A stretch of DNA of 64,000 nucleotides, taken from contig NZ_JAIOUB010000001.1 of assembly GCF_019931215.1 (NCBI RefSeq), positions 1,271,955 through 1,335,954 of the forward strand, given 5' to 3'. The stretch is from Alcanivorax limicola. Lineage in GTDB: Bacteria > Pseudomonadota > Gammaproteobacteria > Pseudomonadales > Alcanivoracaceae. The translations under genes were made by a program, and so were the position numbers. Position 1 is the first letter of the stretch, and each line of letters starts with the position of its first letter. Under the pieces are notes generated by a model, which worked only from the letters and a program-made list of their open reading frames with translations, was not told where the DNA came from and made no database searches. Positions 7,579 through 11,815 of this stretch are shown here, piece after piece.

Positions 7579-7610
7579 GGATAAGGGCGCGCGCGGTATC
7601 TGCGGGTGTG

Positions 7611-7688
7611 GTGCGCTTCGCTTTGCGAAGCACACCCTACGGGAGCGATGCAGGGTGTGCTGAGCGCAGCGAATCGGACTGGCGCACC
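7611..7688 (+). repeat. REP-like intergenic hairpin, copy A
   Basis: A 78-bp sequence beginning GTGCGCTTCGC, with a central imperfect hairpin GCACACCCTAC...AGGGTGTGC, ending GAATCGGACTGGCGCACC. A second copy in opposite orientation lies at 11723-11799. It fills the gap between the convergent ends of the TetR gene and the porin gene. Confidence 0.8.
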
Positions 7689-7699
7689 GGGGCACCAGC

Positions 7700-9190
7700 T
7701 CAGAATTCGAACTGGATGCGCAATGCGTACACCATGCTGGTCCAGTCTTTGGTCTCGCCCACCGGCAGGTCGCGGCTGGACGTGGAGGCATCAACATACA
7801 TGGCGTTGAACTTCACCACGATGTCGTCCACGGGATACCAGTTCACACCCAGGGTGTAATGATCCAGTTCCTGGGCACCACGCGCATCATGGTGATCCGT
7901 ATGGTCGGCATAGGCATAGCGGGCCAACAACTCCAGCGCACCAAAGCCGCCCTGATTGACCGGCTGCAACACACGGGTCTGGCCGAAATCACCGCTGAAC
8001 GCCCGATAGTTACGCCGCTCACCAGTCAGAAAGTAGCTGCTCTGCACATAGTAGCCACCGTTGGACAACGACAGGGGATCAGTGGCCGGGTCACCGGTGA
8101 AGCCGTGCGCGTTGGCGTCCCGGCGCAGATCCTGCACCAGATATTCACCCTGGAAAGACAGTGCCCCCACGCCGTAAGCCGCTTCGAGTGCATAGGTCGT
8201 AAAGTACTTCACATCCTCGAAATCACGCCGCCCGATAACCCGCCCATCAATGGCACGCGTACCCAACCGGCTGCGCATGCGGACGCTGTCATAGTCCCTG
8301 TCACGACCACGACTCTTCTCATGCACATAGGAATTACTGCGGTAGTTCGCTGACACGCCGAGGTGACTCCAGATGCCTCTGTTGACATCAACATAGGGCG
8401 CAAAGGAACTGCGACCCGCCACCGACCAGCCCTCATTGACGTCCCGGCGTCGGGACACATCTGTCCCAAACAGGCCGAGGGCCGCATACCATTCAGGCCG
8501 CAAGGTTTCATACATCACGCCGAGCTGCCTGTCAGGACGATAGGCATCGACAGGCGAGGCGCGCTCAATGAACGAGATACGGCGGGAGCTGGTGGAACTC
8601 TCCAGACTGAACGGCTCCTTGAAGTAACCGAAGGCCAGGCGCCCCTCATCAAACAGGTAGGCGACATAGGTGTTGGCGAACCGAATGCCTTCTATATCGT
8701 CACCCTCTTCAATACCGTAGGTATCCGGGTCACGAAAATCCACCTCCATCTGCCACTCCCATCGATCATAGGCGAGGCCCAGCAAGGCCAGCCGCGCGCG
8801 GCGGATGATAGTGCCGGATCGGCCAAGATCACCGCGATCAAGACGGTCGTCATCCGTGGTTTTGTACGGGTCCTGCAAGCGCGCGTGATCGAACATCACC
8901 CGGCCGCGTACGCCGAAGCGATGTGCGCCATCTGCGCTTTCTACCCGGAATTTGTTCACGCGCGTCCGTGTAAGTTCGTCTTCAATGCGCGTGGTCGGTT
9001 CGTAATTCATGCCGGGATGGCGATCCACCACCGGCGGCTCGGCGCGCAACGACGCGGCCTCAGCGTCACTGAGAATGCCTTTTTCCAGCAGCGTTCTGAT
9101 CAGATCATCGGTGGTATCTGCAAGTGCAGTAACCGGTATTGCCGACGCCATCAGCAGCAAACCTGATATCAACCTTGTCCTTATTTTCAT
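7700..9190 (-). CDS. OprP/OprO-like outer-membrane porin
   Basis: A 496-residue porin. The ATG follows GGAGGAGGG. The signal peptide ends at 'VTALA|DTT'. Next comes a short coiled segment, 'LIRTLLEKGILSDAEAASL', typical of the OprP/OprO (PF07396, phosphate-selective porin) N-terminus. The rest is alternating beta strands ('IIRRARLALLGLAYDRWEWQ', 'RLAFGYFKEPFSLE', 'GWSVAGRSSFAPY') ending in a terminal aromatic 'IQFEF', the outer-membrane insertion signal. Arg-rich strands and loops suggest an anion channel, but the exact ion cannot be read. It is divergent from a CYTH-like/SLC13 pair and preceded by an FNR/Anr box. Confidence 0.85.
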   Translation of the reverse strand: MKIRTRLISGLLLMASAIPVTALADTTDDLIRTLLEKGILSDAEAASLRAEPPVVDRHPGMNYEPTTRIEDELTRTRVNKFRVESADGAHRFGVRGRVMFDHARLQDPYKTTDDDRLDRGDLGRSGTIIRRARLALLGLAYDRWEWQMEVDFRDPDTYGIEEGDDIEGIRFANTYVAYLFDEGRLAFGYFKEPFSLESSTSSRRISFIERASPVDAYRPDRQLGVMYETLRPEWYAALGLFGTDVSRRRDVNEGWSVAGRSSFAPYVDVNRGIWSHLGVSANYRSNSYVHEKSRGRDRDYDSVRMRSRLGTRAIDGRVIGRRDFEDVKYFTTYALEAAYGVGALSFQGEYLVQDLRRDANAHGFTGDPATDPLSLSNGGYYVQSSYFLTGERRNYRAFSGDFGQTRVLQPVNQGGFGALELLARYAYADHTDHHDARGAQELDHYTLGVNWYPVDDIVVKFNAMYVDASTSSRDLPVGETKDWTSMVYALRIQFEF

Positions 9191-9264
9191 GGGAAACCCT
9201 CCTCCGGTATGCGGTGCGCACGAAACGCGGTCTCCATTAGCGCATACGTCTCCCCTCTCCCAGC

Positions 9265-9278
9265 TTGAGCCAGATCAA
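9265..9278. promoter_or_regulatory. FNR/Anr box 1 (porin side)
   Basis: TTGAG-CCAG-ATCAA matches the consensus TTGAT-N4-ATCAA at 9 of 10 positions. Its centre is 41.5 bp from a start point near 9230, with GCTAAT (minus strand, 9236-9241) at the -10 position. This is class II geometry for the porin gene. Confidence 0.75.
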
Positions 9279-9305
9279 TAAAGGCGGGCACCGCACCGGC
9301 AACTA

Positions 9306-9319
9306 TTGATGCAGATCAA
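9306..9319. promoter_or_regulatory. FNR/Anr box 2 (central)
   Basis: TTGAT-GCAG-ATCAA, a perfect match to the FNR/Anr consensus, between the two outer boxes. Confidence 0.8.
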
Positions 9320-9339
9320 CAAACAGCACTCCCTGTTCT

Positions 9340-9353
9340 TTGATGCAGATCAA
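9340..9353. promoter_or_regulatory. FNR/Anr box 3 (permease side)
   Basis: TTGAT-GCAG-ATCAA, a perfect consensus with the same N4 as box 2 and 34 bp from it. Its centre is 41.5 bp upstream of about 9388, with GACAAT (9376-9381) at the -10 position, so it fits class II activation of the CYTH-like gene. Confidence 0.82.
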
Positions 9354-9425
9354 GCGCGGCCTTCTCGTCGGCGTAGACAATGGGCCATGGACAGAGTGGG
9401 CAGTCAGCTGGGCGGGGACAACATC

Positions 9426-10085
9426 ATGGCAGACACCGGGAACCGCTTCGAATGGCGGGCGTTTGCAAAACACTTTGGCGCGCTCGAATACCGCCTGCTC
9501 GAGTACGGGCGCTTCATGGATATGAAAGTGAGCCAGGAGTGGTATCTGATTTCCCGTCACAATACGAATCTGAACATCAAGATCCGCGCGGGCAAACTGC
9601 AGACCAAGGCGCTTGTGCAGACACTCGGCGAACTTGAACAGTGGGCACCTGCGGGCTCAGCCACTCTGCCGGTATCTGCCGACACGTTTCAGGCACAGGT
9701 GCTTGTGCCTCTCCGCATTGCCACCGCCGGCCTGACGATGGAAACCGGGCCGGCATTGCTTGACGAGCATGACCTCAACACCCGTTTTTTTTATCGTTTT
9801 CCGGACATGATCGCTGTGGCATTGCAAAAAAAGCGCATGCGTTATGCGCTGGGCGAGCGACCCGGCGAGGACCAGACTGATAACCAGAACAAGTGCATGG
9901 GGGAACTGGTAGAGCTGGAGATCAATGGCGCCAGCCTGCAATCCCTTTGCATTGAGTCCGTACATCCGGATCAGGTGAAAGAAGCCGCCGCGCTCATCGG
10001 TCTGGATGCCTGGCGCAATCGCAGCTACGTCACGGCATTGCGCGAAACCATGGGGCTGGTGCCGCAAGCACCGCTGCTCAGATGA
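9426..10085 (+). CDS. Hypothetical protein with CYTH-like features
   Basis: About 219 residues from the ATG after GCGGGGAC. Longer in-frame starts at 9306 and 9387 overlap the FNR boxes or the predicted transcript start and are rejected. No signal peptide is seen. The layout resembles a CYTH/triphosphate-tunnel fold: an early beta strand with 'LNIKIRAGKLQTKALVQ', a central acidic strand pair, and a C-terminal 'GELVELEING...' strand followed by a helix and 'RNRSYVTAL'. The canonical N-terminal ExExK is not evident, so enzymatic activity is doubtful. It is followed 13 bp later by an SLC13-type permease and lies opposite an OprP-like porin. A role in handling the transported anion is inference. 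Confidence 0.7.
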   Translation: MADTGNRFEWRAFAKHFGALEYRLLEYGRFMDMKVSQEWYLISRHNTNLNIKIRAGKLQTKALVQTLGELEQWAPAGSATLPVSADTFQAQVLVPLRIATAGLTMETGPALLDEHDLNTRFFYRFPDMIAVALQKKRMRYALGERPGEDQTDNQNKCMGELVELEINGASLQSLCIESVHPDQVKEAAALIGLDAWRNRSYVTALRETMGLVPQAPLLR

Positions 10086-10098
10086 GTATTCAACCCGA

Positions 10099-11703
10099 AT
10101 GAGTACACAGCGCCCTGATTTTGATCCACTGGAAATGGACCATTATCGCATCGACCGTCTGCCGCGACGTGCGCGCTCTGGCATTGAGCTGTGGCTCGCC
10201 CGGCTGGGTATCCCGCTGGCTGTGCTGGCCTTCGTCGTGCTCGGCTATGTCTGGATGCCGGGCTTTCTGCTCAATCTGGACCCGACCACCGTATCGGGCG
10301 CCGCCGCAGCACGTCTTGCTGAAATCGGGCTCACCGACCTGATCCGCAATAATCAGTTGATGCTGGCGGTCTTCGCCGCCGCCATGATTCTCTGGACCAC
10401 TGCGGCGTTGCCCAATTATCTGGTCTCCCTGATTGTCATTTTCGGGCTGATCGCGACCGGCATTCTAAGCGAGCGCGAAGCCTACGCGCAGCTGGGCCAC
10501 CCGGTGATGTGGCTCAACATCATGTCTTTTATTCTCGCCAGCATGCTGGTCAAGACCGGACTGGCGCGGCGCTTTGCGGTCTGGCTGGTGCTGCGGTTCG
10601 GGCACCGGGCATCCGGGGTGTTTCTGAGCTTTATCGTCATCAATACGGTCATGTCCGCCTTCATATCGGCCACCACGGCCAAAGCCGCCATTCTGTTACC
10701 CGTGTTCATGGTCATCGCTGCGATGTACGGCGCCCGACCGGGCGATGGCAAGAACAACTTCGGCCGCAATATCGTTCTGCAGAACCTGCTTTGCATCAAC
10801 CTCGGCGCGGGCGCCTTCATGACCGGCTCCGGGGCGAACCTGCTGGCCGTGGCACTGATCAGTGGTGCGATATCCGGCAGTGTCTATTTTAGTGACTGGA
10901 TGATTGCCATGTTGCCGACCATGGTCGGTCTGATGCTGCTGGGCTACATCCTCGGCTCCCGTGTGTTCTTCCCGCTGGCGCCCGAGGAGCGCATTCCCCA
11001 GGTCGCCGGAGGGCTGGAACGATTACAGGCCGAGTACGAGAAGATGGGGAAATTGTCGTGGACCGAGGTACGGGCCGCAGTGTTGTTTCTGGCCATTCTG
11101 GTGCTCTGGATCACCGACCGCTGGCACGGCATCAGCGCAACAGCCGTCGCCCTGCTGGGCGGTATTGTGGCGCTACTGCCGCGCATCGGCATTGTCGAGT
11201 GGAATGATGTGGATATCCCCTGGCACCTGATGCTGTTTTCCGCAGGTGCCTATTGCCTGGGTGCCGGGTTTGCCCAGACCGGGTTACCGGAAATCAGCGT
11301 TGGTGCTTTTTTTGGCTACGCCGGGATCGACAGCAATACGCCCTTCTGGGCGGTCTATCTGCTGCTGACCGCAATCATGGCGCTCAGCGCGCTGGTGTCC
11401 CAGGCCAAAACCATGCGTGCCATGCTGTTCGTGCCCATTGCCATTGGCGCTGCCGAGACACTGGGCTACAGCGTCATCAGTCTGGCGCTGCCGGTGGCCT
11501 TTCTGATCGAGCATGTTTATGTGCTGCCATTCAACAGCAAGCCGGCGGCACTGCTGTATGAGACGGACCACTACAGTCTGGGCGACGGCTTCCGTTACGG
11601 GATCATCATGATGCTGGCGGGCTGGGTATCTATTGTGGTGCTGGGGGAGACCTGGTTCCGGTTTCTGGGCATTACGCCGGATGGGGTGTTCGGGTTGTTT
11701 TAG
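10099..11703 (+). CDS. SLC13/DASS-type anion permease
   Basis: A 534-residue inner-membrane permease of the divalent-anion:Na+ symporter type (di/tricarboxylate, sulfate or phosphate). The start is an ATG 13 bp after the previous gene; a longer frame inside that gene is rejected. After a 30-residue cytoplasmic start come about 11 hydrophobic segments. The two symmetry-related SNT motifs of the family are altered: 'FISATTAKAAILLPV' near residue 190 and 'ALVSQAKTMRAMLFVPI' near residue 430. No TrkA-C domains are inserted. Altered SNT motifs may mean a different ion or substrate. Probable operon with the CYTH-like gene under FNR/Anr control. Confidence 0.85.
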   Translation: MSTQRPDFDPLEMDHYRIDRLPRRARSGIELWLARLGIPLAVLAFVVLGYVWMPGFLLNLDPTTVSGAAAARLAEIGLTDLIRNNQLMLAVFAAAMILWTTAALPNYLVSLIVIFGLIATGILSEREAYAQLGHPVMWLNIMSFILASMLVKTGLARRFAVWLVLRFGHRASGVFLSFIVINTVMSAFISATTAKAAILLPVFMVIAAMYGARPGDGKNNFGRNIVLQNLLCINLGAGAFMTGSGANLLAVALISGAISGSVYFSDWMIAMLPTMVGLMLLGYILGSRVFFPLAPEERIPQVAGGLERLQAEYEKMGKLSWTEVRAAVLFLAILVLWITDRWHGISATAVALLGGIVALLPRIGIVEWNDVDIPWHLMLFSAGAYCLGAGFAQTGLPEISVGAFFGYAGIDSNTPFWAVYLLLTAIMALSALVSQAKTMRAMLFVPIAIGAAETLGYSVISLALPVAFLIEHVYVLPFNSKPAALLYETDHYSLGDGFRYGIIMMLAGWVSIVVLGETWFRFLGITPDGVFGLF

Positions 11704-11722
11704 GGGGCGGCGGCGGTGCGCT

Positions 11723-11799
11723 GGTGCGCCAGTCCGATTCGCTGCGCTCAGCACACCCTACGGGGCGGTGTAGGGTGTGCTGAGCACGGCGAAGCGCAC
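11723..11799 (-). repeat. REP-like intergenic hairpin, copy B
   Basis: Inverted relative to copy A. Its core GCTCAGCACACCCTAC (11746-11761) and GTAGGGTGTGCTGAGC (11770-11785) form a perfect 16-bp stem with an 8-nt loop. It lies between the convergent ends of the permease and the thiolase gene, where it could act as a transcription barrier. Confidence 0.82.
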
Positions 11800-11815
11800 C
11801 GACCGGACTGCCGGC

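Follow-up and report, generated by a model that had tools for sequence, protein, structure and literature searches.

The genes ccoN and nap are classical targets of FNR and Anr, while the Pseudomonas porins OprP and OprO are under Pho control. Permeases of the DASS family mostly carry carboxylates or sulfate, and the SNT motif of these carriers binds both substrate and sodium. In yeast, an SLC13-type phosphate carrier (Pho91) is paired with the tunnel-type VTC polyphosphate polymerase. The hallmark of CYTH proteins is an ExExK motif, which is missing from one CYTH cluster (PMC8233210). In Escherichia coli, the yfiD promoter contains an upstream FNR site at −93.5 that tunes the promoter down (PMC10208419), and in Candidatus Accumulibacter, a polyphosphate accumulator, FNR boxes are found before the genes of the cbb3 oxidase, other respiratory genes, hemN, and uspA (PMC6446978).

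The locus of Alcanivorax limicola described here shares with class II and tandem FNR/Anr promoters, such as that of yfiD, the TTGAT-N4-ATCAA boxes, one at about −41.5 and another on the same face further upstream, but here the upstream box is at −82.5 rather than −93.5, it is shared with a divergent promoter, and the transcription starts are inferred ones. Likeness to the FNR regulon of Accumulibacter consists in an oxygen switch in a polyphosphate-storing bacterium, whereas the part of that report available to us names no porin, DASS or CYTH-like target (PMC6446978). The porin belongs to the PF07396 family together with OprO and OprP, its nearest solved relatives, but FNR-type rather than phosphate-starvation control is suggested for it. 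By sequence, the permease has the family fold (PF00939) of CitT, TtdT, VcINDY, and NaCT, whereas it has SAT(T/S)AK and (Q/E)xKTxR at the sites of SNT and SNV in SLC13A5. The third protein resembles CYTH/triphosphate tunnel metalloenzymes in the way its basic and acidic residues are conserved, and true CYTH proteins are often encoded nearby, but it has RxExR instead of ExExK, no match in Pfam, and a negative profile comparison. The yeast Pho91/VTC pair, in which an SLC13-type carrier meets a tunnel-type polyphosphate protein, may serve as an analogy only.

Gene content of the locus

The window, that is, the whole stretch of 64,000 nucleotides analysed, corresponds to positions 1271955–1335954 of contig C1 in the 3.55-Mb genome of A. 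limicola (G000; other G numbers denote the genomes compared), and all coordinates are window positions unless another sequence is named. The genes are arranged in the order TetR regulator (plus strand), PF07396 porin (minus), intergenic region, CYTH-like gene (plus), DASS permease (plus), and thiolase (minus). The three genes of interest are:

7700–9190, minus strand: outer-membrane porin of the OprO/OprP family, 496 aa (PF07396, 162.3 bits, cut-off 20.9; nearest solved proteins Porin O and Porin P)
9426–10085, plus strand: CYTH-like protein, 219 aa, without Pfam or NCBIfam match
10099–11703, plus strand: DASS/SLC13-type permease, 534 aa (PF00939, 161.8 bits, cut-off 27; TIGR00785, 195.8 bits, just below the cut-off of 198.6)

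The description of the porin as OprP-like in the initial annotation holds at the level of the family. For the CYTH-like gene, a start codon at 9387 was rejected in favour of ATG 9426, which is the most likely start because the homologues of the genus begin there and 9387 precedes the inferred transcription start.

A palindromic, GC-rich element is present in inverted copies on both sides of the three genes (7610–7696 and 11715–11800). The copies have 45-nt arms that are 96% complementary, with 4,018 nt between them, and the 13-base core of the element occurs in the window at these two places only. In G033, the gaps at the two ends of the module are just 50–60 bp. It is suggested that the element is REP-like or mobile.

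FNR/Anr boxes in the intergenic region

The initial annotation placed three FNR/Anr boxes between the porin and CYTH-like genes, and their positions and scores proved to be exactly as given there:

9265–9278, unstranded: box 1, porin side, TTGAGCCAGATCAA, 9/10 (one mismatch), about −41.5 from the inferred porin start
9306–9319, unstranded: box 2, 10/10, about −82.5 for the porin and −75.5 for the operon (arithmetic from the inferred starts)
9340–9353, unstranded: box 3, operon side, 10/10, about −41.5 from the inferred operon start

Boxes 2 and 3 (TTGATGCAGATCAA) have no mismatches to TTGAT-N4-ATCAA. Measured from start to start, boxes 1 and 2 are 41 bp apart, and boxes 2 and 3 are 34 bp apart. 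The entire 3.55-Mb genome contains just seven perfect TTGAT-N4-ATCAA sites, two of which are found here, and 115 positions with at most one mismatch. At the latter threshold, the window has six matches, compared with 0.89 expected from dinucleotide shuffles of the whole window, and three of the six are located within the 235-bp region 9191–9425. At the genome-wide rate of such sites, the probability of at least three in this region is about 6 × 10−8, a figure that applies to one stretch chosen beforehand and carries no correction for how many intergenic regions there are. Among 20,000 mononucleotide shuffles of 9191–9425, 38 contained one box and none contained more. A chance origin of the boxes was rejected, as they lie far above chance expectation. 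No Rfam family reached its gathering score within 9100–9500.

Promoter geometry

On opposite strands, a hexamer with some resemblance to a −10 element follows each of the two outer boxes:

9236–9241, minus strand: possible porin −10 element, GCTAAT, 4/6, 23 bp after box 1 (read from 9241 to 9236)
9376–9381, plus strand: possible operon −10 element, GACAAT, 4/6, 22 bp after box 3

With the porin start inferred near 9230 and the operon start near 9388, the centres of box 1 (9271.5) and box 3 (9346.5) both fall at −41.5. Box 2, at −82.5 for the porin, would be close to a class I position. Each −10 element taken alone is weak, because about 6% of randomly chosen positions in the window have a hexamer of at least 4/6 at a gap of 20–24 bp, and a scan of 9000–9600 with a generic sigma-70 consensus returned no promoter. 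The earlier assignment of the outer boxes to class II distance from opposite-strand −10 elements is correct in its distances, but the elements themselves match at 4/6 only. In two relatives that carry the locus, G033 and L017 (see below), the hexamer on the porin side scores 3/6 at a gap of 22 bp. On the operon side, L017 has AACAAT 22 bp after a displaced perfect box, which is the same gap as in the window, and G033 has no such hexamer after box 2 (best score, 1/6).

Conservation of the boxes in relatives

Within the family, the CYTH-like protein was detected in four of the 46 genomes (G000, G033, G037, and G044), and porin orthologues of at least 58% identity were found in the same four; a weaker porin relative is present in G045, and G033 and G037 contain second porin copies. 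These second PF07396-like porins (L031, 6269–7804, in G033; L032, 6359–7789, in G037) are 50–51% identical, and each is encoded beside an unnamed protein of about 515 aa. The locus-bearing relative L017 is Alcanivorax sp. isolate PBR18_bin07 (Alcanivoracaceae); its length and match coordinates equal those of contig C22 of G037, with which it is apparently identical.

All three genus members that have the genes show boxes 1 and 2 in register in the alignment, always 41 bp apart. A search with a relaxed form of the pair (TTGA-N6-TCAA, 27 bp, TTGA-N6-TCAA) gave a single match, at this locus, in each of G000, G033, and G037, and none in the other 43 of the 46 family genomes, including G044. Box 1 and box 2 score 8/10 and 10/10 in G033, and 10/10 and 8/10 in L017. 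Between the window and G033, 13 of 14 bases of box 1 and 14 of 14 of box 2 are identical, compared with 101 of 190 other aligned intergenic bases; for L017, the corresponding values are 10/14, 11/14, and 85/191. Box 3 is missing in G033, and in L017 a perfect operon-side box lies about 40 bp further away, having moved together with its −10 element; the constant part of the arrangement is thus the pair on the porin side.

Outside the genus, the pattern is more varied. In the more distant family genome G044, which has the porin and CYTH-like genes, the interval from tctA to the porin gene contains two one-mismatch boxes at a spacing of 50 bp. In G332, from another family of the order, the CYTH-like, permease, and porin genes point in one direction, with one-mismatch boxes 58 bp upstream of the CYTH-like ATG and 99 bp upstream of the earliest start codon in the porin frame. 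The Citrobacter freundii plasmid discussed below has a single one-mismatch site, 147 bp before its CYTH gene. In G054, no box with two or fewer mismatches is found in the stretch common to the CYTH-like and permease genes, and the scanned upstream stretches of the second G054 copy and of G985 contain two-mismatch sites only, with none at one mismatch or fewer. Since G054 and G985, the fullest clusters, have no boxes at that threshold where scanned, control by Anr is not general to the module. The absence of the boxes from relatives that keep the genes had been named beforehand as evidence against the proposal. It turned out that the pair at 9265 and 9306 is kept in three of three genus members, but the box at 9340 is absent from G033 and displaced in L017, and G044 retains two of the genes and not the 41-bp pair.

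Regulator and other candidate target sites in the genome

The genome of A. limicola contains seven HTH_Crp_2 matches, three of them above the family cut-off. One of these three is an Fnr/Anr protein (NCBIfam NF008365, 283.3 bits, cut-off 228) encoded next to hemN, and in our reading its predicted sequence has an FNR-like spacing of cysteines. A homologue of Fnr was found in all seven module-bearing genomes tested, and absent boxes consequently do not mean an absent regulator.

The same genome provided two positive controls: ccoN is preceded by a perfect and a one-mismatch box at a distance of 72 bp from each other, and napA, together with a preceding short frame that we read as putatively NapE-like, by one perfect box. 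Of the remaining three perfect sites, two lie inside open frames and one is in a stretch next to no nameable target. Elsewhere in this genome, at L009 3835–3957, a one-mismatch and a perfect box are 109 bp apart next to genes without a name, which may be a further Anr target. A literature search, with most subscription journals outside its coverage, found no paper joining Alcanivorax, Anr, FNR, and oxygen.

The permease and the CYTH-like protein

The seven permeases linked to CYTH-like genes share SAT(T/S)AK and (Q/E)xKTxR where SLC13A5 has SNT and SNV; the SNT motifs usual in DASS/SLC13 carriers are absent from all of them. They are 19–25% identical to CitT, TtdT, and YbhI of E. coli, and group apart (98/96, with 100/100 for the CitT group) in a midpoint-rooted tree of 11 rows. 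Based on this separate clade and low identity, the permease was rejected as an orthologue of CitT or TtdT. Among solved structures, its nearest relatives are dicarboxylate transporters of plant plastids and citrate/dicarboxylate carriers of the SLC13 family.

In the alignment of the CYTH-like family, 16 positions are invariant in all 16 rows: R7, E9, R11, Y40, K52, R54, K61, P82, K135, R137, E160, G168, E177, L193, N198, and Y201. Judged from sequence, this pattern of basic and acidic charges would suit a phosphate tunnel. The N-terminal ExExK is absent, and RxExR is found instead in all 16 rows. None of the 16 members matched the Pfam CYTH model (PF01928) at E ≤ 10, and a profile–profile comparison of the family with six true CYTH proteins encoded nearby gave a negative result. 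A profile search of the PDB gave no match with eight rows, four weak matches (two of the HAD type) with 14 rows, and only two matches, both weak, with 16 rows: 1yem (E-value, 0.048) and 2dc4 (E-value, 0.077), which we take to be CYTH proteins. The AlphaFold2 model of the CYTH-like protein, built from a two-sequence alignment, had a pLDDT of 42. Given no Pfam match, a negative profile comparison, and two weak PDB matches, a CYTH fold is plausible but not proven. The label CYTH-like, carried over from the initial annotation, accordingly rests on sub-threshold matches that do not establish membership of the CYTH family.

Distribution and neighbourhood of the module

In an even draw of 390 genomes of the order, the CYTH-like profile and the permease (E ≤ 1e−60) were found in exactly the same four genomes (G000, G037, G054, and G332), with at most three candidates scored per genome, so that weaker copies could be missed. 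The CYTH-like profile matched in four of 369 genomes drawn from the class and in seven of 374 drawn from the phylum, the genome of A. limicola included. Among 72,556 plasmid records, the CYTH-like protein of the window matched two, a Citrobacter freundii plasmid and a Cupriavidus megaplasmid, and queries with three other members of the family retrieved the same two records and no more. The viral contigs searched contained no relative, and the Citrobacter-type module had no megablast match in E. coli genomes.

Altogether, 18 places with a CYTH-like gene were compared: G000, G033, G037, G044, G054 (two), G332, G662, G704, G433, G985, G810, G845, G896, G1047, G983, the Citrobacter freundii plasmid, and the Cupriavidus megaplasmid. 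A DASS gene lies beside seven of them and a PF07396 porin near eight. A true CYTH protein is encoded near eight (G054 twice, G985, G810, G845, G896, G662, and Citrobacter), four of these neighbours having been tested with Pfam and the rest assigned by similarity. A PHO4-family carrier together with DUF47 was observed near two (G054 and G985); the PHO4-family gene of G054 also resembles a sulfate permease model, far below its cut-off. Phosphatases of PF00149, which we read as ApaH-like, occur near three of the 18, and in two cases (Cupriavidus and G1047) the CYTH-like domain is fused to Ppx/GppA. Three places have none of these neighbours: G704 (a 3-kb contig), G433, and G983. G704 and G433 (E-value, 8.8e−7, inside a 418-aa frame) were omitted from all alignments, and G983 (E-value, 3.2e−18) was included only in alignment A8 (16 rows). 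At the Alcanivorax-type loci, no phosphate gene adjoins the module. TctA and TctB genes are found beside the porin gene in G044, and a TctA gene lies about 3.6 kb beyond the permease on the Citrobacter plasmid.

Several further genes were seen in these clusters. Frames with an integrase core (PF00665) adjoin the module in G054 (L033, 17695–18705, just below the cut-off) and in G985 (L054, 5069–6073, above it), which, together with the plasmid copies, suggests that the module moves. A protein of 430–490 aa without a family match is encoded in the modules of G054 (L033, 4803–6152), G985 (L054, 9169–10470), and the Citrobacter plasmid (L060, 11162–12637); the first two are 30% identical, and the plasmid protein matches over 113 residues. 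Proteins with a signal-peptide-like start are encoded in the clusters of G054 (L033, 481–1302 and 15357–16193) and G985 (L054, 12140–12967). The G054 copies have a sub-threshold CYTH match (E-values, 0.003 and 0.006) and the G985 copy has none; these proteins are possibly periplasmic relatives. In G054, a cytochrome c552 of the nitrite reductase type (PF02335; L033, 9585–10940) directly follows the DASS gene, a possible link to anaerobic respiration.

Proposed mechanism and alternative explanations

Control of the region by Anr at low oxygen is probable and well supported by the boxes, by the spacing of the pair kept in the genus, and by the regulator encoded in the genome. Our overall explanation, to which we assign a probability of roughly 0.6, is that of an Anr-activated bidirectional promoter driving an anion route, with phosphate or a short phosphate chain as the likeliest cargo. 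When oxygen falls, Anr would become active and its dimers would bind the boxes. Acting as class II sites, box 1 would drive leftward transcription of the porin gene and box 3 rightward transcription of the CYTH-like/permease operon. Box 2, which keeps a distance of four helical turns to box 1, would be a second site of the porin side; it might assist as a class I site or, like the upstream site of E. coli yfiD, serve as a brake when oxygen is entirely absent. Because active Anr would bind and activate both sides, the porin, the carrier, and the CYTH-like protein would be made together and could form one anion route, with the porin in the outer membrane, the DASS carrier in the inner membrane, and the CYTH-like protein probably in the cytosol, where it may bind or process the cargo.

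The module may serve uptake or release of its cargo, which we infer from gene context. The neighbours and fusions of the CYTH-like genes point to phosphate, pyrophosphate, or short polyphosphate, and a phosphate-type cargo is our first guess, at close to even odds; an organic acid is also conceivable because of the carrier family and the TctA/TctB genes of G044. It is in this respect that the most serious alternative differs, an unlikely one in our estimate, in which control by Anr is right and the module is an anaerobic organic-anion route, the porin and DASS carrier exchanging or excreting di- and tricarboxylates in the manner of the succinate antiporters CitT and TtdT. The solved relatives nearest to the permease, plastid dicarboxylate and SLC13 citrate/dicarboxylate carriers, would agree with such a route, as would the annotation of CitT and TtdT as succinate antiporters and the Tct genes, namely TctA and TctB beside the G044 porin and TctA about 3.6 kb past the Citrobacter plasmid permease. 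Against it, the permease is just 19–25% identical to CitT, TtdT, and YbhI and falls into a separate clade (98/96), both of its binding-loop motifs differ from those of these three proteins and from SNT, and such a route would not account for the phosphate-type neighbours of the CYTH-like genes or for their fusion to Ppx/GppA.

The two other alternatives concern the switch itself. Anr may bind and repress one or both sides, the module then serving an oxic function that is shut off at low oxygen. FNR is known to repress genes as well (PMC10208419), FNR-motif genes of Accumulibacter are reported to be lowered by FNR (PMC6446978), and the start positions are uncertain because the −10 elements are weak; nevertheless, boxes 1 and 3 are at class II distance and the operon-side box of L017 has shifted along with its −10 element, which makes repression improbable. 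That the boxes are a product of chance, a relic, or sites of another CRP-type protein is the least credible of these possibilities, and very improbable indeed. Two other CRP-type proteins of the genome do exceed the HTH_Crp_2 cut-off, and the consensus scan found no promoter, but the boxes have a probability of about 6 × 10−8 by chance (for one stretch chosen beforehand), the conserved pair of boxes 1 and 2 is unique in the family genomes, boxes of the same type precede ccoN and nap, and the L001 protein is the only match to the Fnr model among the proteins tested with it.

Returning to the Anr-activated anion route, a more ambitious form of it can be outlined, which we regard as speculative and, on balance, doubtful. 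It would be an oxygen-switched module for the exchange of phosphate or polyphosphate, composed of an OprO/P porin, a divergent tunnel-type polyphosphate protein, and a bacterial SLC13-type carrier that has come to transport phosphate or oligophosphate instead of carboxylates. In bacteria, such a module would correspond to the SLC13/VTC pair of yeast, drawing on or releasing the phosphate of polyphosphate when respiration fails, and would have spread on mobile DNA.

The control by FNR is of an already known kind, and the gene module is undescribed as far as searched. The proposal that the locus is not a common, named system stands within the literature covered, which left out most subscription journals, and in which no pairing of CYTH with SLC13 was found. 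The three genes, a PF07396 porin, a CYTH-like protein, and a DASS permease without the usual SNT motifs, form a rare module that may handle phosphate or polyphosphate. The switch is thus ordinary FNR control set on unusual genes, and the main interest lies in the module, whose outer-membrane, inner-membrane, and cytosolic parts recur together in distant bacteria, and one part of which is a family without any Pfam match that is elsewhere joined to exopolyphosphatase-type domains. If the cargo is phosphate or polyphosphate, the locus would tie oxygen sensing to phosphate storage and would give a branch of the bacterial SLC13 carriers a new substrate.
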